A DNA stretch of 16,087 bases from Promethearchaeota archaeon (GTDB taxonomy: Archaea; Asgardarchaeota; Lokiarchaeia; Sigynarchaeales; SOKP01), in contig JAHLWV010000023.1 of the NCBI GenBank assembly GCA_019057735.1, positions 1 to 16,087 of the forward strand, written 5' to 3'. The number at the start of each line of letters is the position of its first letter. Position 1 is the stretch's first letter. Positions 848 through 13,320 of the stretch are shown piece by piece. The notes under the pieces are model-generated. The model was not told where the DNA came from, ran no database searches, and was given only the letters and a program-made list of their open reading frames with translations. The position numbers and the translations under genes are program-made.

Positions 848-1780
848 TTAATCTTCTTTACTAGGGATTTTTGGTAGTTTTCTCCTAGTAGTAGTAGTAG
901 ACTTAGGTTTTTCAACATTAAGTTCGGAAGACGGTTCAATTTTCTTGAGAACTTCTATTGCTTCGACTATCCCCTTCTTATCATCAAAATAAACTCTAAA
1001 TACATTCTCATCCAATTCAAGTACGCCTTTCGGAACCTTTTTTACTTCTTCCCAGACAATTTCTACGACGTTCTTACCAAAAACATCTGTTACTTTCGAA
1101 ACGGCACCATATAAGGCATGTCCAAGAATAAGGTTTTGACGTTCCATATTTTCTGGTACGCTAATTTTTAATATTTTTTCTTTGATTTTTTCTTTTTCAG
1201 CTTCTGCTAACCCAATAGTGGCATTAATTTTAGAAGGTTGTACAGATCGACCTTTTTCTTTTTTCAAAGGGCGTCCTATTCCAATTGAAGACATTACGAT
1301 ATCATCGGTCGTGTCTTCTAAAGCTGGAGAATAGTAGTCTTCATCAGGTCCCCCCTTCTTCTCTTTCGATTCTCTCTCAATACGTTCTAGCTCGAGCAAC
1401 CTATCGCGTTCAATGTTTCTTACATAGCGCATATCGGGAGGTCGTTCTGTTACTTCCATAGATTCCAACCTGAACGCGCTTAAAAATTCTTGGAGTTCAT
1501 CTCCTTGATCTATGGAGACAATTTTACATCTATGATACCGGGCGTCTTTAATTAAATCTCTTTGCAAATCTTGTGCTACTCGAGAGCTTATGAACCTTTT
1601 TCTTACAGGAGATTTCACTCCTTTCCAAATAAAAATCCTTCTAAGGTCCTCACGTATTATTATTAGCACTTGCTCAGGATTTAAATGATTTTTAAGCTCT
1701 TCTGGCTTAATATTTAATCTCGTGCGGTCGCCCGTGTTTTGTAGGTCGTAAACTATGAATTCATCGTAGATTTCGGTCAT
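848..1780 (-). CDS. Gelsolin-like domain protein
   Basis: A 310-residue soluble protein. Residues 8-106 read like one gelsolin/severin-type repeat: a beta strand ending in IIIRED, a strand followed by IFIWKG (compare the I-x-x-W-x-G core of gelsolin domains), a long helix (residues 62-80, FISSRVAQDLQRDL), and a strand plus DQGDE turn followed by a helix (residues 86-102). A charged linker (107-200) precedes a second folded region (about 200-282) that I do not recognise. The tail is Thr/Arg/Lys-rich. Gelsolin-family proteins bind, cap or sever actin, and gelsolin-like proteins are known from Asgard archaea, so an actin-regulatory role is inferred. No calcium-site residues could be assigned. 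The ATG start has no strong Shine-Dalgarno. The family call rests on pattern resemblance only. Confidence 0.6.
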   Translation of the reverse strand: MTEIYDEFIVYDLQNTGDRTRLNIKPEELKNHLNPEQVLIIIREDLRRIFIWKGVKSPVRKRFISSRVAQDLQRDLIKDARYHRCKIVSIDQGDELQEFLSAFRLESMEVTERPPDMRYVRNIERDRLLELERIERESKEKKGGPDEDYYSPALEDTTDDIVMSSIGIGRPLKKEKGRSVQPSKINATIGLAEAEKEKIKEKILKISVPENMERQNLILGHALYGAVSKVTDVFGKNVVEIVWEEVKKVPKGVLELDENVFRVYFDDKKGIVEAIEVLKKIEPSSELNVEKPKSTTTTRRKLPKIPSKED

Positions 1781-1912
1781 GAGTTATTTCTATAACATGT
1801 TTAAGTTTAAAAATTAGATTTAAAAACGGTTTAATTTAACGAAATAGTCTTTTTACCAAAATATAAAATTTCCGATATTAAAATCTATTTGAAAACGCAC
1901 TTACTTTAGGAT

Positions 1913-1950
1913 TAAAAAAAACAAAATTAGAAAAAAAAATAACAAAATAA
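1913..1950 (-). terminator. T-rich terminator after LOR gene
   Basis: Just downstream of the minus-strand stop at 1960, the minus strand carries two runs of eight or nine T residues (complement of the A-runs at 1915-1922 and 1932-1940). Archaeal RNA polymerase often stops at such U-tracts. It would separate this gene from the gelsolin-like gene that follows on the same strand. Confidence 0.4.
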
Positions 1951-1959
1951 ACTAGACTC

Positions 1960-2493
1960 TTAATTTCTATTTTCTTCTTTTTCGTGGTGTAGCATTATGA
2001 CTATCCCAAGGATAAGCATTGCTGATTCGTCGTCAAGGTCTGGAGACATTTTTACTCCGAACGTATTCTTTAGAAGACTTTTCCATAATTTTTTTCGTAT
2101 TTCGGCAATTTCCTGTCCATCTTTAAAAATTTTGAATTTAAGTGTCATAATGTTTCCTTTCATCGTGAAAACTTTGTTCTCATCAGGATCCTCAAACCAA
2201 TAGCTAGGTTTAATAGATATGAGCTTTCTTTTTAGCTGCCCAATTAACTTATCGTCCTCTTTCTCACCTCCCCTATAAAATTTATAGGATGAGCGAAGAG
2301 AGATTATTTTTTCTGAAATTGTTAATATGGGGACCTCATCAAGATCTCTTATCCGGTAGGTATTACCAATCTTTATTAACTTTCCCCTAAAAGTCCCTAA
2401 TAGTTCGTTGTCTAAATTCCTAATCTCACCCTTGTCCGTTAAAGAAATCATCTTTTCACGCATCATAAATTCTCGTGTTTTTTGAAGCGACAT
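1960..2493 (-). CDS. LURP-one-related (LOR/YxjI) protein
   Basis: A 177-residue protein that looks like a single LOR (tubby-C2-like) beta-barrel domain. The evidence is repeated hairpins of the type 'D-x-(D/E)-x-x(L/V)...I..K...L', for example DLDEVPILTISEKIISL and EDPDENKVFTMKGN, then a late FKIFKDGQEIAEIRKK strand pair, and a final hydrophobic helix (SAMLILGIVIMLHH, residues 157-170). These match the order in YxjI-type proteins, which end in a D(D/E)-x-(A/L)-helix. The family is related to tubby and phospholipid scramblase folds, and a membrane-lipid role is only inferred. The start is fixed by a good Shine-Dalgarno (GAGAGG) eight bases upstream. No zinc ribbon is fused here, unlike the second LOR gene at 3228-4007. 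Confidence 0.75.
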   Translation of the reverse strand: MSLQKTREFMMREKMISLTDKGEIRNLDNELLGTFRGKLIKIGNTYRIRDLDEVPILTISEKIISLRSSYKFYRGGEKEDDKLIGQLKRKLISIKPSYWFEDPDENKVFTMKGNIMTLKFKIFKDGQEIAEIRKKLWKSLLKNTFGVKMSPDLDDESAMLILGIVIMLHHEKEENRN

Positions 2494-2501
2494 TTTTTTT
2501 T

Positions 2502-2507
2502 CCTCTC
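2502..2507 (-). promoter_or_regulatory. Shine-Dalgarno of LOR gene
   Basis: The minus strand reads GAGAGG, 8 nt before the ATG at 2493. It supports that start over the internal Met codons at residues 10 and 11. Confidence 0.6.
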
Positions 2508-2612
2508 TTTTTCTTTATATTAAGGTTTTAAAGGTATAATCATATTATAGCTATAAAAATTTTTGCTCTTTTTAACAATTGGACTACTAGAACTTATTAA
2601 TATGAGAGTGCA

Positions 2613-2622
2613 CATATAAAAT
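2613..2622 (+). promoter_or_regulatory. Candidate TATA box
   Basis: CATATAAAAT lies about 65 nt upstream of the ATG at 2686, which would give a leader of about 40 nt. The surroundings are AT-rich, so chance occurrence is likely. Confidence 0.25.
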
Positions 2623-2685
2623 AAGAAACTCAGAAATAATTGTATTTTAAGAAGAATAATACAAAATAAGTAAAAGAATTGAAAA

Positions 2686-3177
2686 ATGGCGTTAGTATAT
2701 AGTACCGAAGGTTATTTTTGCGAAGGGGAAGTAGTAAAAGACTGGAAGTTTAGCATGGAATATGGAAGAATCGTTTTATCAGCAATAGAACTCTCACTTG
2801 TAAAAAAATCAAATATAAACCTAACTGAAATGGGTTCCTCAGTTGATAATTATAAAGATGGTTTCGTAATTCCTTTAACTCAAATTAAAAAAGCGTATAG
2901 TGCAAAAATCCAAAAAATCTACGTTGTAGTAGTTGAAACCAGGGATGGCCTTTTGTTTTCCTTAACTATGGCGAATAACAGAAGTATTGGCCGTCTAGAA
3001 AGTATGAATTTAAGCGAAATGATAAATTCCACCGTATTACTCGCGAATAAAACGAGTAAAAACACACAGAATGTTGACGATTATAAGGTAAAGCCTCTCT
3101 CTAATAAATGTACAAAATGTGGTGAAGAGATTTCTTATAGTTGGCAATTCTGCAAAAATTGTGGAAAAGAGCTATAA
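2686..3177 (+). CDS. PH/GRAM-like protein with C-terminal zinc ribbon
   Basis: A 163-residue protein. Residues 1-118 alternate short beta strands in the order expected of a PH/GRAM-type barrel: an early strand with G-x-V-x2-(D)W, VIPLTQIKKAYSAK as the 'I-P-x-x-x-I' strand seen in bacterial PH and GRAM domains, IYVVVVETRDG as the following hairpin, and a final amphipathic helix (LESMNLSEMINSTVLLA, residues 104-120). A linker leads to a C4 zinc ribbon (C142, C145, C156, C159; spacing 2-10-2). PH/GRAM domains commonly bind lipids or proteins at membranes, and that function is inferred here. The gene stands alone on the plus strand between two minus-strand LOR genes. The PH assignment rests on strand pattern only; another small beta barrel is possible. 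Confidence 0.6.
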   Translation: MALVYSTEGYFCEGEVVKDWKFSMEYGRIVLSAIELSLVKKSNINLTEMGSSVDNYKDGFVIPLTQIKKAYSAKIQKIYVVVVETRDGLLFSLTMANNRSIGRLESMNLSEMINSTVLLANKTSKNTQNVDDYKVKPLSNKCTKCGEEISYSWQFCKNCGKEL

Positions 3178-3207
3178 AAATTCAAAAAAAGAAAGGAATT
3201 TTTTTTT
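3176..3207 (+). terminator. Hairpin plus T-tract terminator
   Basis: AAAAATTC (3176-3183) and GAATTTTT (3196-3203) form an 8-bp stem around a 12-nt A/G-rich loop, with T residues continuing to 3207. It overlaps the last bases of the stop codon of the PH-like gene and lies before the convergent LOR gene. Confidence 0.5.
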
Positions 3208-3227
3208 ATTAATAAATTCTTGAATCA

Positions 3228-4007
3228 TTATCTACGACGAAGGCCTCCAAAAGGACCTGGAAACCTCCCACGGCGGCGTGAACCCATCCCCCCCATCATA
3301 CCACCCATTCCACCTGAATCGTGCATCACATTATCAATTGATAACACGAATCCTACTAATATTCTTCTATCAGTCTCGTTGTCCAGAATTCTTAGGGCGT
3401 ATCTATCAGCAAAGTCAAATATTCCTCCCAAGAATACATCTCGCCATCGGTCGGCTTTTTCTATTTCTGCTACTAATTTTCCTGTAGTAATATCGTAGAT
3501 TTTAAACGACCAGCCAAAAAAGTCTCCAACAGCTTCATACCATCGATTTCCCATAGGATCTTCCAAAAAGAATTTCGACTTAAAGAGTGTTAGTATTTTT
3601 TTTTTAATTCTTGCTATAAGTTCTCCATCAGGGGTTTTTAAATCTTGAGCCCCCCGGGCAGAAACTATTTTACTATGGATGGTGGCAACAATCGTACCAT
3701 CAAGTTCTTGGAGTTCAACTCTTCTCCTTATACTTAGAAGAATTCTATGCATCCTTCCAATCAGTTTCCCTTCTTCATCCATAATATCGCCAAATCCCAT
3801 ATCCCACATGCGTTCATGTATCAGGTAGTACGACCTACTTAGATCAAACAAACTAGCGCCATCCGAAAGAGTCTGTTTTGGAGCTGAAGTTAAGCTAATT
3901 TCCTGTTTCTTTTCGGGAGGAGCTTTTACAGATCGCAATTCCGCTCCACATTTCTCACAGAATTTTTGTCCTGGATCTATTTTATCTCCACAATTTGGAC
4001 AACTCAC
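3228..4007 (-). CDS. Zinc-ribbon LOR/YxjI protein with Gly-Met-Arg tail
   Basis: A 259-residue protein with three parts. Residues 3-20 are a C4 zinc ribbon (C3, C6, C17, C20). Residues about 57-227 are a LOR (tubby-C2/scramblase-like) domain with the family's successive beta hairpins (D-E-x-G-K-L-I-G-R; DGTIVATI; TPDGELIARIKKKIL; EDPMGNRW; GDFFGWSFKIYD) and a closing helix after 'RYALRILDNETDRR'. The last 30 residues are a low-complexity Gly/Met stretch followed by an Arg/Gly-rich basic end. The start is GTG, with AAAGGTTGA a few bases upstream acting as a plausible Shine-Dalgarno; the first codons already encode the zinc ribbon. LOR proteins are thought to act at membranes, but the biochemical role is uncertain. 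The basic tail could bind acidic lipid or nucleic acid. Confidence 0.75.
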   Translation of the reverse strand: MSCPNCGDKIDPGQKFCEKCGAELRSVKAPPEKKQEISLTSAPKQTLSDGASLFDLSRSYYLIHERMWDMGFGDIMDEEGKLIGRMHRILLSIRRRVELQELDGTIVATIHSKIVSARGAQDLKTPDGELIARIKKKILTLFKSKFFLEDPMGNRWYEAVGDFFGWSFKIYDITTGKLVAEIEKADRWRDVFLGGIFDFADRYALRILDNETDRRILVGFVLSIDNVMHDSGGMGGMMGGMGSRRRGRFPGPFGGLRRR

Positions 4008-4170
4008 AAAATCAACCTTTTCATTATTTTATTAAATTTTATTTTAATCATCAATAATCAACTTAGTCTAATAAATGTAAGGATAGGTTGGTATCTCTAA
4101 TTGCATTATAAAGAAATGTTTTAATTAAACTAAGATTTTACTAATAGTATAAAAAAGAAGTGGGAAAAAA

Positions 4171-4956
4171 TTGTCAACAAAAACAACGATACCAAGTTTA
4201 TTAAAAATTAAAGATTATGTAACGCTTATAGGGACCACGATAGGAATTATTGCGTTAATTTGTGGCTCATTTGGAACGAGGGATGCTATTTCCTTAGGCT
4301 TCTTTTTAATTTCAATTACTTTAGGTACAGATCTAATTGATGGCTATATCGCAAGAAAAACGGGAACTGTAAACGATATGGGCAGAGAATTAGATTCTCT
4401 AAGCGATTCTTTAACATTCGGTATTGTTCCAGCAATCTTGTCCTTTCAAGCGTTCAAAACTGGAACACTCTACGATTTTATCTTAATAATCGCATGCATA
4501 TGCTTCGCCTTAGGAGCAGTGTTAAGATTAGCTAGATTTAATATCCTCGAAGATCCAGGATATACGGGTGTGCCTACACCCGTAAGTTGTCTTTTAATGA
4601 TAGGCTTCTTCTATATAAATTATTTCCATGCGTTTGCATTAGGTGGTTTAACATATCCTTTCTTAGCTATAACCTATTACATTGTACCCTTTCTATTAGT
4701 ATTCATTGGCTGGTTAAATATAACTACGCACATTAAGTTTGGTGAAAAAGGTAAAATCGTGTATTACGGTTTTATTGTTTTAGCTCCACTCTCTCCGATT
4801 TTTGGCATCATTGGTATATTAAATCCCAATTTTATCGTATCAATGACCGTAGCAATTATTTTTTTGATATTATTTCTTATATTGTTTGTGTGGACGCTCT
4901 TTCACTCTTTTTTGTTAAACTTTCTAGCAAAAGGGAAAGAAACAAAATCAGATTAA
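4171..4956 (+). CDS. pssA: CDP-alcohol phosphatidyltransferase, likely archaetidylserine synthase
   Basis: A 261-residue integral membrane enzyme. It carries the full family signature D-x2-D-G-x2-A-R-x8-G-x3-D-x3-D: D54, D57, G58, A61, R62, G71, D75, D79. These residues bind two metals and the CDP-lipid. The following 'SDSLTFGIVPA' and 'GVPTPV' (about 132-137) are typical of the PssA subfamily, which transfers a CDP-activated lipid to L-serine; in archaea the product is archaetidylserine. Several hydrophobic helices span the protein. The start is TTG with GAAGTGGGA just upstream, since an in-frame TAA sits at 4150 and no ATG intervenes. A related transfer to inositol or glycerol cannot be fully excluded, but the motif context favours serine. 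Confidence 0.85.
   Translation: MSTKTTIPSLLKIKDYVTLIGTTIGIIALICGSFGTRDAISLGFFLISITLGTDLIDGYIARKTGTVNDMGRELDSLSDSLTFGIVPAILSFQAFKTGTLYDFILIIACICFALGAVLRLARFNILEDPGYTGVPTPVSCLLMIGFFYINYFHAFALGGLTYPFLAITYYIVPFLLVFIGWLNITTHIKFGEKGKIVYYGFIVLAPLSPIFGIIGILNPNFIVSMTVAIIFLILFLILFVWTLFHSFLLNFLAKGKETKSD
4563..4584 (+). repeat. Perfect inverted repeat inside pssA
   Basis: TACGGGTGT (4563-4571), a GCCT loop, and ACACCCGTA (4576-4584) form a perfect 9-bp stem. It covers the codons for the conserved G-V-P-T-P-V motif, so protein constraint may explain part of it. Confidence 0.5.
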
Positions 4957-4996: not shown

Positions 4997-6979
4997 CTAT
5001 AGGATGCGTTCCTTCCACTCTTCTATACTTTCAATAATGTGCTTAATATCTACAACGTTTAAATGACTCATGTGATTTTTATATTGGTTTATTTTACTTC
5101 TAATCTTGTGAAGGGTCACGCTAAATCCTTTTTTCTCTAAAATTAGATCTGCGATGATCGCAATTTCTTTACTAAATTCATCGCCTTTAAGCTTATGTAG
5201 CCTTTTGATTAAATCCTTGAATGCGTTATTTATTTCAATTCCCGATTCATCGAGTTTCATGGGCTTTTCTGTAGGTTTAGGTGTTTGGCTGGATTCACGT
5301 TCTTTTTTAGGTTCGTTGATTTTGTTATTGAGTTCTTCAGCTAAATGTGCAATTTTACCATCTGATGATATATCTTTTTGTTTTTTAACTTGATTAATAA
5401 CCGATTTTTTAGTTATCGTTGTAGGAGTAGTTTTTAGCGGTGTTTTTATCGGAGAGGGTCTAACAGGTTTAGATATTTTTGTGGTAATTGAAGTTTTTAA
5501 AACGCTGCTCTTTTTTGGGACCGCTATATTAAGAGTTCTAGGCGTTTCCTGCAGACTCGAGCTACCAATATCCCATATCGCTTTAACTACAAATTGGAAC
5601 ATTTTTATTAGTGATTTGTTTTTTGAAGCAAAACCAGTAAAATTATCTGAAGCGTTTTTTGATTCCATATCTACAATACCAATTACAAGGCTATCATCGT
5701 CCCCCCTACAAATGATAACACTTTCGTTTTTAAGGATTCGGTATTCGAGATTTTTTAAATCTTTATATTTTTTAACGAGGCTATTTGTATGAGCTTCTGA
5801 GGAAGCAATTTGAATTTTAATTGGACCTGATTTATCTTTAAAATCATCGAATGAAAGACTTTCTTCTAGTTTTGGAACAACTACTAATAAACTTTGAGTA
5901 GATTGAGAGATAATATTCCTTATTTCTTCTTTTGCTCTTGTTATGTTTTTGATTTGCCAAAAGTTATCGGATTCTTGCTCCATTGATTCTTTAATTATAT
6001 TATAATAGCTGTCTAAAGTATTATTAATTGGTTCGTTTAGAGCTGCCACTGAATCGACGGATTTTCCTATTATTTCGGAGAAATTATCGATTATTGTTTT
6101 TTCGAACTCATCTAAGTCACTTTCTAAGCGTATTTTTTTAGTTTTGATCAGTTCAATTATTTGTTTAATTTTTTTTTCATTTGTAGATAGCATGTTAAGT
6201 AATACCATCTGAAAATCGTCTCGAAATCGAAATGTGGAATTAAGAATATTGTTAAGCGACTCGATTGTGTTATCAAACTCGTCTCCAATCAATTTATGTA
6301 AATTGGCAGTAAAATCTCCAAGCATTTTATTAAAATTTTCCTTGAAGGCTCTTTCTACTATTTCTTTTACAGCCTTCTCTGATTTTTTTAACTCTAAACT
6401 CTCAATTTTACTATAAATATCCTTTTTAATATTGGCAATTAGTTTGATTAACGATGAAAATTGAGTTTGAGTTACTCCCTTGATTGTTTGACGTAAGTTC
6501 TCCAATACTTCCTTTATAGCTTTTAAATTTTCCATTCCTTGTACAATATCATCAATATCTAGTTTCTGGATAATAACATCTTCTTCGACATCTTTTCTTA
6601 ATTCTTGCACCGCATCATACACCGTATCCAATTCAATTATTTGATTATCTTGGAAAATTTTCGCTAAAGATTTTGAGAGTAGAATTTGTAATTGTTTTTT
6701 GATGCTAGGTAGATTATTGTTTATGTTTTCATAATAATTTAATATCGGTTTTATTGGCGGGATTGCTAAGTATTGCAAAATACCTAGTTTTTGATTGGAA
6801 TTTGGAATAAATAAACCGTTATCAATGATGTCTCCTAATACATTATTAAAATCTTCTTGAGATATATTTGGTAAAAAAGAATAGAGTTCAGACGATGATA
6901 AGGGCTGTTGACCAAGGCATTTGATATATAATTTAATAGCGTTATCTGAAAGTTGAAAGTTTTTTAAAAATTCTTCCAT
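4997..6979 (-). CDS. TrmB-like winged-helix protein with long coiled coil
   Basis: A 660-residue protein from the ATG at 6979, which has AAAGGAA about 10 nt upstream; an upstream ATG at 7018 would add 13 mostly basic residues. Residues about 8-57 form a TrmB-type winged helix-turn-helix (LSDNAIKLYIKCL, then a recognition-helix-like LSSSELYSFL). Residues about 85-350 are highly helical and probably coiled coil. Residues about 345-470 resemble the TrmB C-terminal regulatory domain: helix AKEEIRNII, strand SLLVVVP, a later strand pair with VIICRGDDDSLVIGI, and a final helix ending AIWD. A Pro/Thr/Lys-rich disordered linker (475-580) leads to a helical C-terminal domain (580-660). Ordinary TrmB proteins are about 250-350 residues, so the coiled coil and tail are large additions. 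DNA binding is inferred; the effector is unknown. It is divergent from the vWA-RING-like pair. Confidence 0.65.
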   Translation of the reverse strand: MEEFLKNFQLSDNAIKLYIKCLGQQPLSSSELYSFLPNISQEDFNNVLGDIIDNGLFIPNSNQKLGILQYLAIPPIKPILNYYENINNNLPSIKKQLQILLSKSLAKIFQDNQIIELDTVYDAVQELRKDVEEDVIIQKLDIDDIVQGMENLKAIKEVLENLRQTIKGVTQTQFSSLIKLIANIKKDIYSKIESLELKKSEKAVKEIVERAFKENFNKMLGDFTANLHKLIGDEFDNTIESLNNILNSTFRFRDDFQMVLLNMLSTNEKKIKQIIELIKTKKIRLESDLDEFEKTIIDNFSEIIGKSVDSVAALNEPINNTLDSYYNIIKESMEQESDNFWQIKNITRAKEEIRNIISQSTQSLLVVVPKLEESLSFDDFKDKSGPIKIQIASSEAHTNSLVKKYKDLKNLEYRILKNESVIICRGDDDSLVIGIVDMESKNASDNFTGFASKNKSLIKMFQFVVKAIWDIGSSSLQETPRTLNIAVPKKSSVLKTSITTKISKPVRPSPIKTPLKTTPTTITKKSVINQVKKQKDISSDGKIAHLAEELNNKINEPKKERESSQTPKPTEKPMKLDESGIEINNAFKDLIKRLHKLKGDEFSKEIAIIADLILEKKGFSVTLHKIRSKINQYKNHMSHLNVVDIKHIIESIEEWKERIL

Positions 6980-7056
6980 TTTAAGCTTATTCCTTTTTCT
7001 TTTTAATAATATATACAATCAATATTTATTTTTTAAAGTTTTTTAGATAAAAAAAA

Positions 7057-7066
7057 TATTTAAAGA
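7057..7066 (+). promoter_or_regulatory. Candidate TATA box for first vWA gene
   Basis: ATATTTAAAG preceded by an A-run fits an archaeal BRE/TATA arrangement. It lies about 57 nt upstream of the ATG at 7114, in the divergent gap shared with the TrmB-like gene. Confidence 0.35.
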
Positions 7067-7113
7067 ATAACTTTCTACACTAAATATATATCTTACCGGT
7101 ATTCAAAATCATT

Positions 7114-8460
7114 ATGAGCCCGCACGAAGATGTTTTTTTCTACTTAGATTTAGCTAAGGACATTTTGAAGAAGAAGGAAGTTAGCAAAGCCCTAAAATTC
7201 TATATATCGGAGAAGAACAAGACAAATATTAAAGGACATTATGGTTTACTAATATTCCAAGAAGAAGGAAATCCAATTTTTATAACTGATAAAAAAGACT
7301 CTAGTATTATAGAAAACGCTATTGAAGAAAATTGGAAATCGCGCCCAAAAAAACAATCCTTTTTTGAAAATGGTTTATTTTATATCTTCTCGTATATCGC
7401 AGAGAGTATACAGAAAAAATCAAGGCATAACAGAATAATCATAATTACTGATACACCAAGTGATCTATCTGAAGATTATACAGAAGCTCTATTTGGATTA
7501 GTTTCTAAAATAAAAGTTATACCAACATTTATAGATATCATACGAGTATCAGAGAAAGAAGAACGATTTTTTAAAGATGATGTTAAATTAAACATACTTT
7601 CTAGCGATACGAATGGTGGGATATTTTATCTCTCAGAAAAGAAAGATTTTATGTCGATTATTAAGAAATTAACTAAAACTAAACAAATTGTTAATTTATT
7701 CGTGGATAAATCGGAAAAAATTAAAATACAGAAAGATGATTACTATTTTTATTCTAATTTAGCTAAGAGTTTAAAACCTTCACACACCAACGATGTTGGT
7801 TTGAAGTGTCATCTATGCCAAGAAGAAATTTGCCCTTGTTGTGCCGATATAAACGATACTTTGCAACTTTGTGAAGGATGTGGGGCGGCATTTCATAATT
7901 GTTGCGTGACTAATTACACGATTCAGAATAATATTGGGATTCCTCATATTTTTCGATGTCCTAAATGTGATATTCTATTAAAAATTAGACAAGACGAAAT
8001 TGTAGCACCTTTTGAGGATTCCGTTGAAACAATTGATGAATATTTAGAATCTGAAGAAGAAAGCATGGATCTAACTGACGATATTAATGTTTCTGAACTC
8101 GAACCCATTGAAGTTGACGAATCCACAAGTGGAGAAATGCCCGATAAAGGAATTCAGCAAGTAAGAATTGGAGGGTTTTTTGGAAAGACGTACACTATTA
8201 AAAAGGAAGGTGATAAACTAGTGTATGAAAAAGTTAGCTCTCTTAATAATAACGAAAAGTCTCACCAAGTAGATGTTAATGAGACCGATTCCACAGCACC
8301 ACTTAATCTTAAAAAACCGGAAATTCCAAAATTCTGGAGCCCTTCCAAGAATCGAAAAAGACCGACTTTTATAAATTGTCCTGGATGCGGAACGCAATTA
8401 AAAGAAGGCGACATTAATAAACAATCATGTTCTTATTGTGGATTCAAACTTGATATTTAA
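7114..8460 (+). CDS. vWA-like/RING-like/zinc-ribbon protein, paralog 1
   Basis: A 448-residue protein. Residues 5-190 look like a von Willebrand A fold: strand FFYLDLAKDIL, strand YGLLIF, helix FFENGLFYIFSYI, central strand IIIITDTPSDLS, strand TFIDIIRV and strand GGIFYLS. The metal site (MIDAS) is degenerate; only D-x-A is seen where D-x-S-x-S is usual. Residues 232-285 hold a dense Cys/His cluster: C232/C235, C240/C243, C253/C256, H261/C264 and C282/C285, resembling a RING-like finger (C-x2-C-x4-H-x2-C, then C-x2-C). An acidic linker (295-345) contains V-R-I-G-G-F-F-G (350-357), and the end is a zinc ribbon (C422, C425, C439, C442). A vWA plus RING-like layout recalls TFIIH p44/Ssl1 or vWA-RING ubiquitin ligases. 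Ligase or TFIIH-like activity is inferred, not shown. Confidence 0.65.
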   Translation: MSPHEDVFFYLDLAKDILKKKEVSKALKFYISEKNKTNIKGHYGLLIFQEEGNPIFITDKKDSSIIENAIEENWKSRPKKQSFFENGLFYIFSYIAESIQKKSRHNRIIIITDTPSDLSEDYTEALFGLVSKIKVIPTFIDIIRVSEKEERFFKDDVKLNILSSDTNGGIFYLSEKKDFMSIIKKLTKTKQIVNLFVDKSEKIKIQKDDYYFYSNLAKSLKPSHTNDVGLKCHLCQEEICPCCADINDTLQLCEGCGAAFHNCCVTNYTIQNNIGIPHIFRCPKCDILLKIRQDEIVAPFEDSVETIDEYLESEEESMDLTDDINVSELEPIEVDESTSGEMPDKGIQQVRIGGFFGKTYTIKKEGDKLVYEKVSSLNNNEKSHQVDVNETDSTAPLNLKKPEIPKFWSPSKNRKRPTFINCPGCGTQLKEGDINKQSCSYCGFKLDI

Positions 8461-8499
8461 TTTCAACCTTTAACATTTTTTAGCAAAAGTGAAAATTTC

Positions 8500-8527
8500 T
8501 TATTTTTATTTTAATCAATAAAAATAA
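8500..8527 (+). terminator. AT-only inverted repeat after first vWA gene
   Basis: TTATTTTTA (8500-8508) and TAAAAATAA (8519-8527) form a 9-bp AT stem 40 nt past the stop, embedded in a larger imperfect inverted repeat (about 8491-8538). It may mark a transcript end, but AT composition makes it weak evidence. Confidence 0.25.
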
Positions 8528-8550
8528 ATAAAAATTCTCTTATTATTGAG

Positions 8551-8559
8551 TATATAAAT
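8551..8559 (+). promoter_or_regulatory. Candidate TATA box for second vWA gene
   Basis: TATATAAAT lies 45 nt before the ATG at 8605, leaving room for transcription to start about 25 nt downstream. It suggests that the second paralog has its own promoter. Confidence 0.4.
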
Positions 8560-8604
8560 TTACTTTGATTTTAGATATAATTTATATTTCACTTGGAACG
8601 TAAG

Positions 8605-9981
8605 ATGTTTAAGAAAAAGTCAGTGAATTCTGAAGAATATATTTTTTACATTGATCTCATAACAGATTTTTTAAAGAGAAAGAATCTTGTTAAGAGCATT
8701 AATACTTTCATGAAAGAAAAAGCTAAATTCAATACCCAAACTTCCTATGGTCTCTTACTATTCCAAAAAGATGAGAATCTTGTGACTCTTTATGATGAAA
8801 ATGATTTTGAATCGTATAAAAAGGTATTAGAAGAAAAATGGGAAACTCGAGAAACTGAGAGAAGTCTATTTGAAAATGGGTTATTTGAGATATTAGCTTA
8901 CATTTTCAGAAAAAGTCGAGATGCTCGAAAAAATTATAGAATAATAATAATTTCAGACACACCTAGCACCTTATCTGATGATTATCACAATGCTCTTTAC
9001 GATCTACTACTCAAAGCAAAGAAATTTGATACATTTATTGATGTTATTCGCGTAGGAGATCAAAAGTTCTACGACGACGACGTAAAATTGAAAGTAGTTA
9101 CAAGCGAAACCCATGGAGGAGTTCTTTATTGTAACGAAGGAAAATCTTTCTTAAACATAATCACCTCACTAATGCAAAATCGATCAGAATTTAATGTAGT
9201 TCACCCTGAATCAGATAATCAAATTCTTGACGAAGATAAAATCTTTTACGAAAGATTAGCAGTAGATTTGATTTCGCTTGATCCCGATGATGAAGAAAAG
9301 TGTGACATTTGCGAAAAAGAAGTCTGTCCCATTTGCAGCGCCTATTCCGACGAAGTTCATAAATGCTTTAATTGTGATGCTAAATATCATGCATGTTGCG
9401 CTGCAGATTATTCAATATCAAATAACATAGGTTTTAAACACCTATTTAGATGCACTCAATGCGATACGCTCTTAAAACTCGATGAAGATTACGTAGAGAT
9501 GATTTATGAAGAAGAATACGAGTCGGAAACAGTTGAAGTGGAACAAGATATAGAGATTGAAGCGATCATAAGTAAGGCAGTTGAGGATGATATTCCTGAG
9601 GCTCAGACTATCGATGAAACTACTTATGATGAAGGAGATCAAAAATTAACTATTGGCGAAGGAATATTAAATCCTGAAACTCTTAAAACACCTCCAAGTT
9701 TAAACAATATTCCACGAGAATCTCACTCCACTAAAAAAGTTAAAGTTGGAGGGTATTTTGGGCAGGAGATAACCGTTAAACCTAATGAATTAAACGGAAA
9801 TCTGCTTCCCTCTGCAACTGAAACAATAATAAGGGAATCAGACGGTTCCACTCAAGTTAAAGAAAAAATTTCTATAACTACCCTGAAACCTCCAAGAAGA
9901 AGTACTATTAAATTCTGTAAGATGTGTGGTTTCACTTTAAGAGGTATTTCTACTTGTCCTAAATGTGGATTCAAGAATTAA
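8605..9981 (+). CDS. vWA-like/RING-like/zinc-ribbon protein, paralog 2
   Basis: A 458-residue protein, clearly a tandem paralog of the gene at 7114, with the same order of parts. The vWA-like domain spans about 12-192 (FYIDLITDFLKRK; YGLLLF; LFENGLFEILAYI; IIIISDTPSTLSDDY; TFIDVIRV; GGVLYC). The RING-like cluster uses C233/C236, C241/C244, C254/C257, H262/C265 and C283/C286, so all ten ligands align with the first copy. A longer acidic linker (293-345) is followed by V-K-V-G-G-Y-F-G (379-386) and a terminal C4 ribbon (C438, C441, C451, C454). The ATG at 8605 is chosen because it aligns with the paralog start; an in-frame TTG at 8593 would add four residues. The two copies may form a heterodimer, but that is speculation. 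Function is otherwise unknown. Confidence 0.65.
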   Translation: MFKKKSVNSEEYIFYIDLITDFLKRKNLVKSINTFMKEKAKFNTQTSYGLLLFQKDENLVTLYDENDFESYKKVLEEKWETRETERSLFENGLFEILAYIFRKSRDARKNYRIIIISDTPSTLSDDYHNALYDLLLKAKKFDTFIDVIRVGDQKFYDDDVKLKVVTSETHGGVLYCNEGKSFLNIITSLMQNRSEFNVVHPESDNQILDEDKIFYERLAVDLISLDPDDEEKCDICEKEVCPICSAYSDEVHKCFNCDAKYHACCAADYSISNNIGFKHLFRCTQCDTLLKLDEDYVEMIYEEEYESETVEVEQDIEIEAIISKAVEDDIPEAQTIDETTYDEGDQKLTIGEGILNPETLKTPPSLNNIPRESHSTKKVKVGGYFGQEITVKPNELNGNLLPSATETIIRESDGSTQVKEKISITTLKPPRRSTIKFCKMCGFTLRGISTCPKCGFKN

Positions 9982-11515: not shown

Positions 11516-12541
11516 ATGTTGACTAAATACAATGTAGTGCAAGTGGGTTTAGGTCCCATGGGAAGCATAGTTGCGAAACTTATTCTTAAACGCGAAAACC
11601 TTTCTTTTAAAGGAGTTGTTGATATTGATCCTAAACTACAAGGTTTAGGTCTTAGTAACATTCTCAATCTTGAAAAAGATACCGAAATCATTGTAGAGTC
11701 TGATTTAGCACCTATTCTGGCAAAAAACGAAATTGATGTTGTTATAATAGCTACTTCTTCTTCATTAGAAAAAGTAGCGCCTCTAATCAGACAAGCGGTA
11801 AATTCTGGAAGTAATGTAATATCAATCTGTGAAGAATTATCCTATCCTTTTGAGAAATACCCAATATTGTCCGAGGAATTGGACGATTTAGCAAAATCTA
11901 ATAATGTAACGGTAGTTGGAACTGGTATTAATCCCGGATATCTTATGGATTTATTACCTATTGTCGTCACAGCTCCTTGTCAAAGCGTTGAATCAATTAA
12001 AGTAACGAGAATGATGAATTCAGCCAAAAGAAGGGTTCCTTTCCAGAAGAAGATCGGGACTGGGTTAACACCAGAAGAATTTCGCCGAAAAATTGACGAT
12101 AAAGTTATTACTGGGCATGTAGGATTAATTGAATCAATACAAATGATTTGCGATGCGTTAGGTTTTGAATATGATGACATAACAGAACATCCACCTGAAG
12201 CAGTAATTACTGAAACAGATTTCACAACTTCTTATGGGGAATTAGTTCCAAAGGGTTATGTTCGTGGATTGAGAAGCAAGGCAGTAGCTGAAAAAGATGG
12301 TAAAGTGATAGTCCTTTTAGATTTCCAAGCGTACGCTGGTGATCACGATGAATACGATAGTATCGAAATAGAAGGAACCCCCAATATTCATCAAAAGATC
12401 ATTGGTGGTGTTCATGGTGATTTAGGTACTTCTGCTATGGCGGTAAATTTAATTCCTATCGTGAAAAAAGCAAATGCAGGGCTTTTAACTATGAAAGATC
12501 TACCGGTTCCTTGTAACACAGAACGTGTATTGAAGAATTAA
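11516..12541 (+). CDS. 2,4-diaminopentanoate dehydrogenase-like oxidoreductase
   Basis: A 341-residue NAD(P)-dependent dehydrogenase. The N-terminal Rossmann fold has the dinucleotide motif GLGPMG (11-16) and an acidic strand end at VVDID (34-38), followed by VVIIATSSS (75-83). The catalytic half contains GTGINPGYLMDLL (135-147), GTGLTPEEF (181-189), GHVGLIES (200-207) and a C-terminal KDLPVP (327-332). From memory these match the Ord family, which converts 2,4-diaminopentanoate to 2-amino-4-oxopentanoate in ornithine fermentation and is distantly related to dihydrodipicolinate reductase. No other ornithine-pathway gene (OraS/OraE, OrtA/OrtB) is in the window, so the true substrate may differ. 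The preceding PLP enzyme ends 81 nt upstream and could supply or use the same amino/keto acid. Confidence 0.75.
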   Translation: MLTKYNVVQVGLGPMGSIVAKLILKRENLSFKGVVDIDPKLQGLGLSNILNLEKDTEIIVESDLAPILAKNEIDVVIIATSSSLEKVAPLIRQAVNSGSNVISICEELSYPFEKYPILSEELDDLAKSNNVTVVGTGINPGYLMDLLPIVVTAPCQSVESIKVTRMMNSAKRRVPFQKKIGTGLTPEEFRRKIDDKVITGHVGLIESIQMICDALGFEYDDITEHPPEAVITETDFTTSYGELVPKGYVRGLRSKAVAEKDGKVIVLLDFQAYAGDHDEYDSIEIEGTPNIHQKIIGGVHGDLGTSAMAVNLIPIVKKANAGLLTMKDLPVPCNTERVLKN

Positions 12542-12603: not shown

Positions 12604-13320
12604 ATGCCAATAGATAAGGGAAATGAAATTGAAAGAATTAAAGAAGTAGAAAGCATTAATTTAGCTCGAGAAGAGATAAGAGACGAAGTTATCGAGACTA
12701 AAAAAGCGGTTGAGAAAGACAACGAATTGTTAGCTAATCGAGTACATCAAAAGTTTAAAGATAATAACATAAAATCTTTTGATATTGTAGGGGCTATCGG
12801 AGCAGGGAAAACTGCTTTATTAGAAAAGATAATCGAGAAAATATCCTCACAATACCGAATATTAGTGATCTGTGGAGATATTACTACCCGTGTAGATGCT
12901 GATCGCATTGAAAAACATAACGCGGAAACTGTTCAGATTAATACTGGTCGAGAATGTGCCTTAAACGCTTATCATATAAACCAGATTATTAAAAATAAAG
13001 ATTTAAATAATTACGATCTTGTCTTTATTGAAAATGTAGGTAATTTAATATGCCCATCAGATTTCATTTTAGGAACTGACAAGAGACTAATTGTAGTCTC
13101 AACAACTGAAGGTGAATGGGTCGTTGAAAAACATCCATTGCTATTTAAAATGTCAGATATTGCGGTAATTAATAAGATCGATTTAAAAGAACGCCTTGGA
13201 ACTAATGTCGATAAGATGATCTCTGATGCAAAAAAAATCAACCCCAAAATAGAAGTAATTACAACAAGTGCAAAAACTGGGGAGAACATTGAAAAATTAA
13301 TGAATTTAATGAACATATAA
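12604..13320 (+). CDS. HypB-like GTPase with altered metal site
   Basis: A 238-residue SIMIBI-class GTPase. After a charged helical N-terminal extension (1-50), it shows the P-loop GAIGAGKT (63-70), GDI plus D98/D100 near the switch region (91-101), FIENVGNLICP (141-151), the guanine-specificity NKID (190-193) and SAKTGE (222-227). In HypB, which inserts nickel into [NiFe] hydrogenase, the GTPase domain binds metal through a Cys-His pair and a second Cys. Here C118 and C150 are kept, but the His after the first Cys is replaced by Ala119 (ECAL instead of ECHL). No HypA or hydrogenase gene is nearby. It may still be HypB, or a relative serving a different enzyme. The next gene starts 20 nt downstream, suggesting an operon. 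Confidence 0.8.
   Translation: MPIDKGNEIERIKEVESINLAREEIRDEVIETKKAVEKDNELLANRVHQKFKDNNIKSFDIVGAIGAGKTALLEKIIEKISSQYRILVICGDITTRVDADRIEKHNAETVQINTGRECALNAYHINQIIKNKDLNNYDLVFIENVGNLICPSDFILGTDKRLIVVSTTEGEWVVEKHPLLFKMSDIAVINKIDLKERLGTNVDKMISDAKKINPKIEVITTSAKTGENIEKLMNLMNI

Follow-up and report, generated by a model that had tools for sequence, protein, structure and literature searches.

Two tandem genes in the Lokiarchaeal genome of Promethearchaeota archaeon (assembly GCA_019057735.1) encode paralogous proteins that combine a von Willebrand factor A (vWA) domain, a RING/PHD-like zinc finger, an acidic linker with a GG[FY]FG motif and a C-terminal zinc ribbon, in the same order. Both lie on the forward strand of the analysed stretch (positions 1 to 16,087 of contig JAHLWV010000023.1, hereafter the window): ORF1 (7114..8460) begins with an ATG and has 448 residues, and ORF2 (8608..9981) has 457 residues from the ATG at 8608, with a TTG at 8593 as alternative start. 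We give an even chance to the reading in which the two proteins form a heteromeric (probably heterodimeric), non-catalytic scaffold that would work like p34/p44 of TFIIH or like Rpn10. The parts are ordinary; their combination, together with the existence of a p44-like sister family, is unusual.

The original prediction had placed tandem paralogs here, and the two open reading frames (ORFs) are indeed 34% identical over 473 columns (244 bits, BLASTP). It had also held that the finger is constrained while the acidic linkers diverge. Identity between the copies amounts to 42% in the vWA domain and 46% in the finger versus 10% and 4% in the two linkers, the first of which is acidic in ORF1 (21 D/E vs. 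1 K/R over 53 residues). Likewise, the ratio of nonsynonymous to synonymous substitution rates (dN/dS; four pairwise comparisons, ORF2 regions delimited by ORF1 numbering) is 0.065–0.123 in the vWA domain and 0.009–0.118 in the finger (61 codons) versus 0.23–0.46 in the linkers. Because dN/dS stays within 0.009–0.123 in the vWA domain and the finger, the genes are under purifying selection and are not chance ORFs.

A search across 5.8 billion proteins returned 375 homologs of ORF1; organism labels, carried by 21 of the 120 matches listed, are all Asgard (9 Promethearchaeota, 6 Lokiarchaeota, 2 Hermodarchaeota, 2 Hodarchaeota, 1 Thorarchaeota and 1 Odinarchaeota, as deposited for these metagenome-assembled genomes, MAGs). 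All 15 named loci belong to Lokiarchaeota/Lokiarchaeia MAGs, in agreement with the archaeal host first proposed, and a match is present in 51 of 58 related genomes, many of them incomplete. Two of the underlying searches scored about 8,000 candidates each. Motif counts refer to 33 ORF1-type and 34 ORF2-type proteins, of which 29 and 26, respectively, are full-length (>430 residues). Neither ORF1 nor ORF2 has a match above cut-off in Pfam or NCBIfam; at E ≤ 1, Pfam yields only zf-tcix (0.041) and C1_2 (0.042) for ORF2 and two unrelated DUFs for ORF1.

The vWA domain spans residues 2–190 of ORF1 (7117..7683, forward strand), and its counterpart in ORF2 (8617..9171, forward strand) was placed by alignment to ORF1. 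That ORF1 adopts the vWA superfamily fold, as the original prediction had it, is what the structure model (57-sequence alignment, mean predicted local distance difference test, pLDDT, of 66) predicts: residues 5–186 form the vWA strands and helices (ten-residue pLDDT means 62–93), and vWA domains make up the listed structural matches. The first Foldseek rows are TFIIH vWA subunits (E 2e-9), the identity of the chains, here and in the sister-family match below, being given by PDB molecule names where available and otherwise assigned by us, in part from residue numbering. These rows extend past the vWA domain with high root mean square deviation (rmsd), while the VIA rows cover essentially the vWA domain alone. 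The VIA rows list neither RING nor PHD chains, which is no evidence against such a finger because the vWA domain fills the list. A feature that the original prediction did not point out is the loss of the metal ion-dependent adhesion site (MIDAS) motif: DLAKD in ORF1 and DLITD in ORF2 occupy, in the alignment, the position of DxSxS in the sister family, and DxSxS is found in 0/33 ORF1-type and 0/34 ORF2-type proteins vs. 26/27 sister-family proteins.

The proposed resemblance to TFIIH p44/Ssl1 holds for the predicted vWA structure of ORF1 but not for family membership. The pair shares with p44/Ssl1 and p34/Tfb4 a vWA fold followed by zinc modules and the presence of two vWA-zinc paralogs, in addition to ORF1's first Foldseek rows. 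Unlike them, it carries a long disordered linker with the GG[FY]FG motif and then a simple C-terminal ribbon, and no helicase gene was seen nearby. The Pfam profiles Ssl1 (PF04056), Tfb4 (PF03850), TFIIH-zinc and RING find no match at E ≤ 1 in ORF1 or ORF2, which rules out the two proteins as Ssl1/Tfb4 members. By analogy, we infer that their fold would nevertheless work like the TFIIH vWA-zinc subunits.

It is the sister family, not the pair, that has the p44 order (vWA, finger, RING) and the Pfam Ssl1 match. Its 27 rows (ca. 395 residues) carry the MIDAS motif, with the sole exception of L102 (loci of the sample are numbered with an L), and a second, C-terminal RING. With Foldseek, it matches p44/Ssl1 over its length (E 2e-18; alignment spanning 3–389, rmsd 13.7). 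Among 119 Asgard genomes, 31 have Pfam Ssl1 above cut-off, every one of them from the window's order, and no sampled genome outside families f1 and f2 does, a single weak match below cut-off occurring in f23 (these are labels of the genome set, not taxon names); among 14 control genomes, E. coli matches below cut-off. In a profile search of 148 genomes, (nearly) full-length sister proteins are confined to the window's class, whereas the 10 matching genomes outside it show vWA-length stretches only. These two distributions led us to reject the idea that the sister family arose in Asgard groups closer to eukaryotes.

In a maximum-likelihood tree of 78 of the 110 distinct rows (a quick tree without bootstrap, midpoint-rooted for drawing, every second ORF1/ORF2 row being dropped but the window kept), 30 rows, 29 of them with DxSxS, are separated from 48 rows with none in the metal-site strand (Shimodaira–Hasegawa-like approximate likelihood ratio test, SH-aLRT, 100). 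One branch sets apart the 17 ORF1 rows (SH-aLRT 99) and another the 18 ORF2 rows (82); the duplication thus probably predates the sampled genera. The other paralogs comprise three long proteins with the MIDAS motif (608–686 residues), ten intermediates without it (333–414 residues) and three single-copy relatives without it, the DxSxS string of one of the latter (L068) falling outside the metal-site strand. The long proteins (L036:6860-8683, L037:5136-7193, L039:6719-8575) have an additional middle part, and the C-terminal end of the L039 protein gives weak DDRGK (0.05) and PCI (0.18) matches.

One alternative makes the pair and its sister family the archaeal p34/p44 in a TFIIH-like complex that would assist XPD/XPB during transcription or excision repair. 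We consider this very improbable. Co-distribution with XPD is uninformative because DEAD_2 is near-universal, with matches in 4 of the 14 control genomes. The DEAD_2 family also includes DinG. A "TFIIH-like" family related to ERCC-3/RAD25 has been described in other Asgard genomes and, in the accessible text of that source, is a distinct protein (PMC9258230).

The finger is encoded at 7807..7968 in ORF1 (forward strand; ligands C232, C235, C240, C243, C253, C256, H261, C264, C282 and C285) and at 9301..9462 in ORF2 (forward strand), with ten identical ligands. The original prediction had described a ten-ligand cluster of RING type; both copies do have the ten ligands, but these are not the defining trait of the family, because only eight are kept across it. 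The ten-ligand pattern occurs in 33/33 ORF1-type and 32/34 ORF2-type proteins, but in 0/10 intermediates and 4/27 sister-family proteins, and the eight-ligand pattern (without 240/243) in 33/33 and 33/34 of the ORF1- and ORF2-type proteins. Judging from these sequences, the family-wide core is the eight ligands, the CPxC pair of the first loop (240/243) being variable.

Most probably the finger is of RING/PHD type, either of the two being possible, since a finger-only profile (23 family members) matches in PDB sequences the PHD of MTF2 (5e-5), the RING-like finger of NSE1 (4e-4) and the RING of FANCL (1e-3), followed by KAT6A PHD and RAF-1 C1 fingers, and since at E ≤ 1 the 23 fingers match mainly Pfam PHD (19) and zf-RING_2 (18), as well as C1_1 (11). 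Some points weigh against a RING: the ORF1 finger alone matches only Pfam PHD (E 0.027, 15 bits for a cut-off of 24), neither this finger nor the whole ORF1 and ORF2 proteins reach a curated Pfam RING/PHD cut-off, and the ribbon families DZR and Zn_ribbon_3 each match 10 of the 23 fingers, leaving a ribbon as a less probable alternative. The pair shares with binuclear treble-clef fingers of the RING/PHD kind (MTF2 PHD, NSE1, FANCL, Prok-RING_1) the spacing C-x2-C ... C-x2-C-x4-H-x2-C ... C-x2-C and the aromatic residue two positions before ligand 7. It differs from them by the extra CPxC in loop 1, a Tyr in place of the Trp that follows ligand 6, and the absence of the linchpin Arg; moreover, the last pair is C-x3-C or C-x4-C in some ORF1 orthologs, unlike the usual C-x2-C. 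In the ORF1 model, residues 232–285 (pLDDT 67–87) form a hairpin, a helix from the third ligand pair and then the last pair, a predicted secondary structure consistent with a zinc cross-brace.

Such a finger raises the alternative that the two proteins are RING ubiquitin ligases (E3), or adaptors of ubiquitin-conjugating enzymes (E2), of the Lokiarchaeal ubiquitin system, with the vWA domain selecting the substrate, like the vWA-RING ligases to which the original prediction compared them. We regard this as unlikely, though by no means negligible. In principle the proteins could act as E3s, because E2-like genes occur in 56/58 and ubiquitin genes above cut-off in 53/58 of the related genomes. 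An archaeal cascade of activating enzyme (E1), E2 and RING works in vitro, and, in the portion of the source available, its RING needs Ile, Trp and Arg (PMC5654768), the transfer of these residues to the finger positions being our own mapping. At the E2-facing sites, ORF1 orthologs keep a hydrophobic L/F/I and Pro (34/34 each), but Tyr/Phe replaces the RING Trp after ligand 6 (34/34) and the linchpin Arg/Lys is missing (0/34). ORF2 (27 parsed of 30 rows, one counted double since L015 and L031 represent a single gene) keeps Ile/Leu, but has Tyr (24) or His (3) at the Trp position, Pro after ligand 7 in only 6/27 and Arg/Lys after ligand 8 in 0/27. In favour of a ligase, the sister family has in its finger 1 an Ile preceding ligand 2 and a Trp following ligand 6 (35/35) as well as Pro (28/35), and its second finger matches the Arkadia RING (1e-6), yet finger 1 also lacks the linchpin Arg/Lys (0/35). 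Ubiquitin and E2 genes are absent from the annotated neighbours; one intermediate-type gene (G027:C24) lies by eye about 4 kb from an E2 gene, a chance-level proximity by rough estimate. Altogether, the finger type of the ligase comparison stands, while the E3 hallmarks are partly lost and the whole proteins lack a Pfam RING match, so that active E3s are made less probable by the residue checks and the neighbours.

The rest of each protein is linker and ribbon. In the ORF1 model, the linker is disordered (pLDDT mostly <50). It contains a conserved stretch (8155..8232, forward strand) with the motif RIGGFFG (residues 351–357), for which short strands are predicted at low confidence (residues 348–373, pLDDT 38–49), and alignment and motif counts identify KVGGYFG in ORF2 (9742..9762, forward strand). 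This GG[FY]FG motif, another feature that the original prediction did not point out, is present in 29/29 ORF1 and 26/26 ORF2 full-length copies, but in 0/43 other family members and 0/611 background ORFs (mechanical ORFs of at least 200 residues, not all genes). The C-terminal ribbon and the identical order of parts had been predicted correctly: a four-Cys ribbon lies at 8377..8439 in ORF1 (forward strand; C422, C425, C439, C442; residues 422–442 with pLDDT 75–79) and at 9916..9966 in ORF2 (forward strand), and CxxC...CxxC occurs in 29/29 ORF1-type and 25/26 ORF2-type full-length proteins.

In the scaffold reading, ORF1 and ORF2 derive from an ancient tandem duplication in Lokiarchaea, one arm each, and their vWA domains would bind partners without metal. 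The vWA domains of p34, p44 and Rpn10 are thought to do so as well. The finger would serve as a protein-docking module rather than as an active ligase, and the GG[FY]FG stretch may bind either a partner protein or the second copy. The comparison with Rpn10/PSMD4 concerns the vWA domain, as a zinc finger is absent from the matched Rpn10 region, unlike in the pair. Rpn10 carries ubiquitin-binding helices.

The comparison of gene neighbourhoods covers 21 loci, namely the window and 20 genomes from 8 genera, with some stretches ending early. In 18/21 the two copies lie next to each other, L056 stopping at a contig edge and L035 and L067 having one ORF2-type copy. Ubiquitin, E2, TFIIH-helicase and repair genes are absent from the annotated part of the neighbours. 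The repair, transcription or ubiquitin module of the original prediction gains no support from these neighbours, whereas its being undescribed agrees with the literature covered (few subscription papers) on Asgard TFIIH, RING/E3, vWA and prokaryotic RING-vWA proteins, in which no description of a vWA-finger family was found. Combinations of RING and vWA domains are reportedly noted by Burroughs, Iyer and Aravind in 2011. PMC7159879 and PMC8195603 cite this work, whose subject is prokaryotic RING fingers.

A constant neighbour (4997..6979, reverse strand) encodes a weak winged-helix-like N-terminus, a long coiled coil, by eye a TrmB-effector-like stretch, and a well-conserved C-terminal stretch; a TTG start at 7018 is possible, but most relatives use the Met at 6979. 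This gene is present in 21/21 loci and directly head-to-head with the pair in 19, other genes lying between in L035 and L061. The window copy has no family above cut-off, and an assignment to a known regulator was rejected, as TrmB matches 1 of 12 members (E 0.0044) and Regulator_TrmB one (0.2), the rest being weak or coiled-coil matches. Further upstream lie a CDP-alcohol phosphatidyltransferase (4171..4956, forward strand; its cluster in 21/21 loci), a gelsolin-repeat protein (848..1780, reverse strand; 17/21) and, according to Pfam, a LURP-one-related/scramblase-like protein (1960..2493, reverse strand) and a zinc ribbon plus LURP-one-related protein (3228..4007, reverse strand), the LURP-one cluster occurring in 18/21. 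The region 848-4956, with two LURP-one/scramblase-like genes, a gelsolin-repeat gene and a CDP-alcohol phosphatidyltransferase gene, is a possible membrane/cytoskeleton cluster kept in the Lokiarchaeal family. The flank beyond ORF2 is less conserved, its commonest gene being common to 6/17 loci. In the window, it includes a HypB-type nickel GTPase (12604-13320) amid amino-acid metabolism genes (2,4-diaminopentanoate dehydrogenase-like, below cut-off; tyrosine phenol-lyase/tryptophanase), with no hydrogenase gene recognised in the window by the NCBIfam scan. Across the window, nothing reaches the Rfam gathering score and the tRNA scan found none.

Another alternative is a pair of signalling or coat type, comparable to ArnA-ArnB or the Sec23/Sec24 core, in which vWA domain and zinc finger would cooperate with membrane and gelsolin-type proteins. 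We think this decidedly improbable. ArnB (Sulfolobus) and the Sec23-Sec24 core share with the pair a vWA fold with a zinc finger as partner (PMC12852372, in the part of its text available), but the finger of the pair is of the RING/PHD type and sits on the same chain as the vWA domain. The ORF1 model shows neither a beta-sandwich nor a helical domain past residue 190, but it is poor beyond 297, and the vWA structural matches by themselves do not discriminate.

The sister family has neighbours of its own: in one of its branches, 13 of 16 loci pair the gene head-to-head with a GTPase from a single cluster. Of the two GTPase copies compared with a library, that of L091 matches Gtr1/RagA (72 bits) and that of L093 small_GTP below cut-off. 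This pairing is a lead, not proof, because Lokiarchaea have many small GTPases. Other arrangements were also observed. GTPase-paired sister genes often have MtrH-like and TPR-like genes downstream (L086-L105, e.g., L091:5067-6272 and 6470-7660), and, of the three single-copy relatives that lack MIDAS, two stand head-to-head with a small GTPase gene (L034:7791-8378, L068:2348-2989). In L043-L046 (one family; e.g., L046:4292-5464 and 11522-12523), MIDAS-intact and MIDAS-less vWA-finger genes flank a methionyl-tRNA synthetase gene and a CoA-ligase-like gene, and this methionyl-tRNA synthetase cluster is seen again in L047, L095, L098, L100 and L102.

The pair is also a practical target for biochemistry: both zinc proteins are small, the linker motif is conserved, and so is the partner gene that lies head-to-head. 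A further, highly speculative possibility is that Lokiarchaea have a p34/p44-like module outside TFIIH, made of the MIDAS-intact p44-like family, with its vWA domain, RING-like finger and C-terminal RING and with one branch head-to-head with a Rag-type GTPase gene, and of the MIDAS-less p34-like tandem pair, and that the eukaryotic TFIIH vWA subunits descended from, or share their origin with, Asgard adaptors whose first use was in GTPase or ubiquitin signalling. The literature searched gave no archaeal counterpart of TFIIH p34 or p44. The Lokiarchaeal family with the p44 order and the diverged, metal-site-less pair are testable candidates for the origin of the eukaryotic vWA-zinc-finger subunits.

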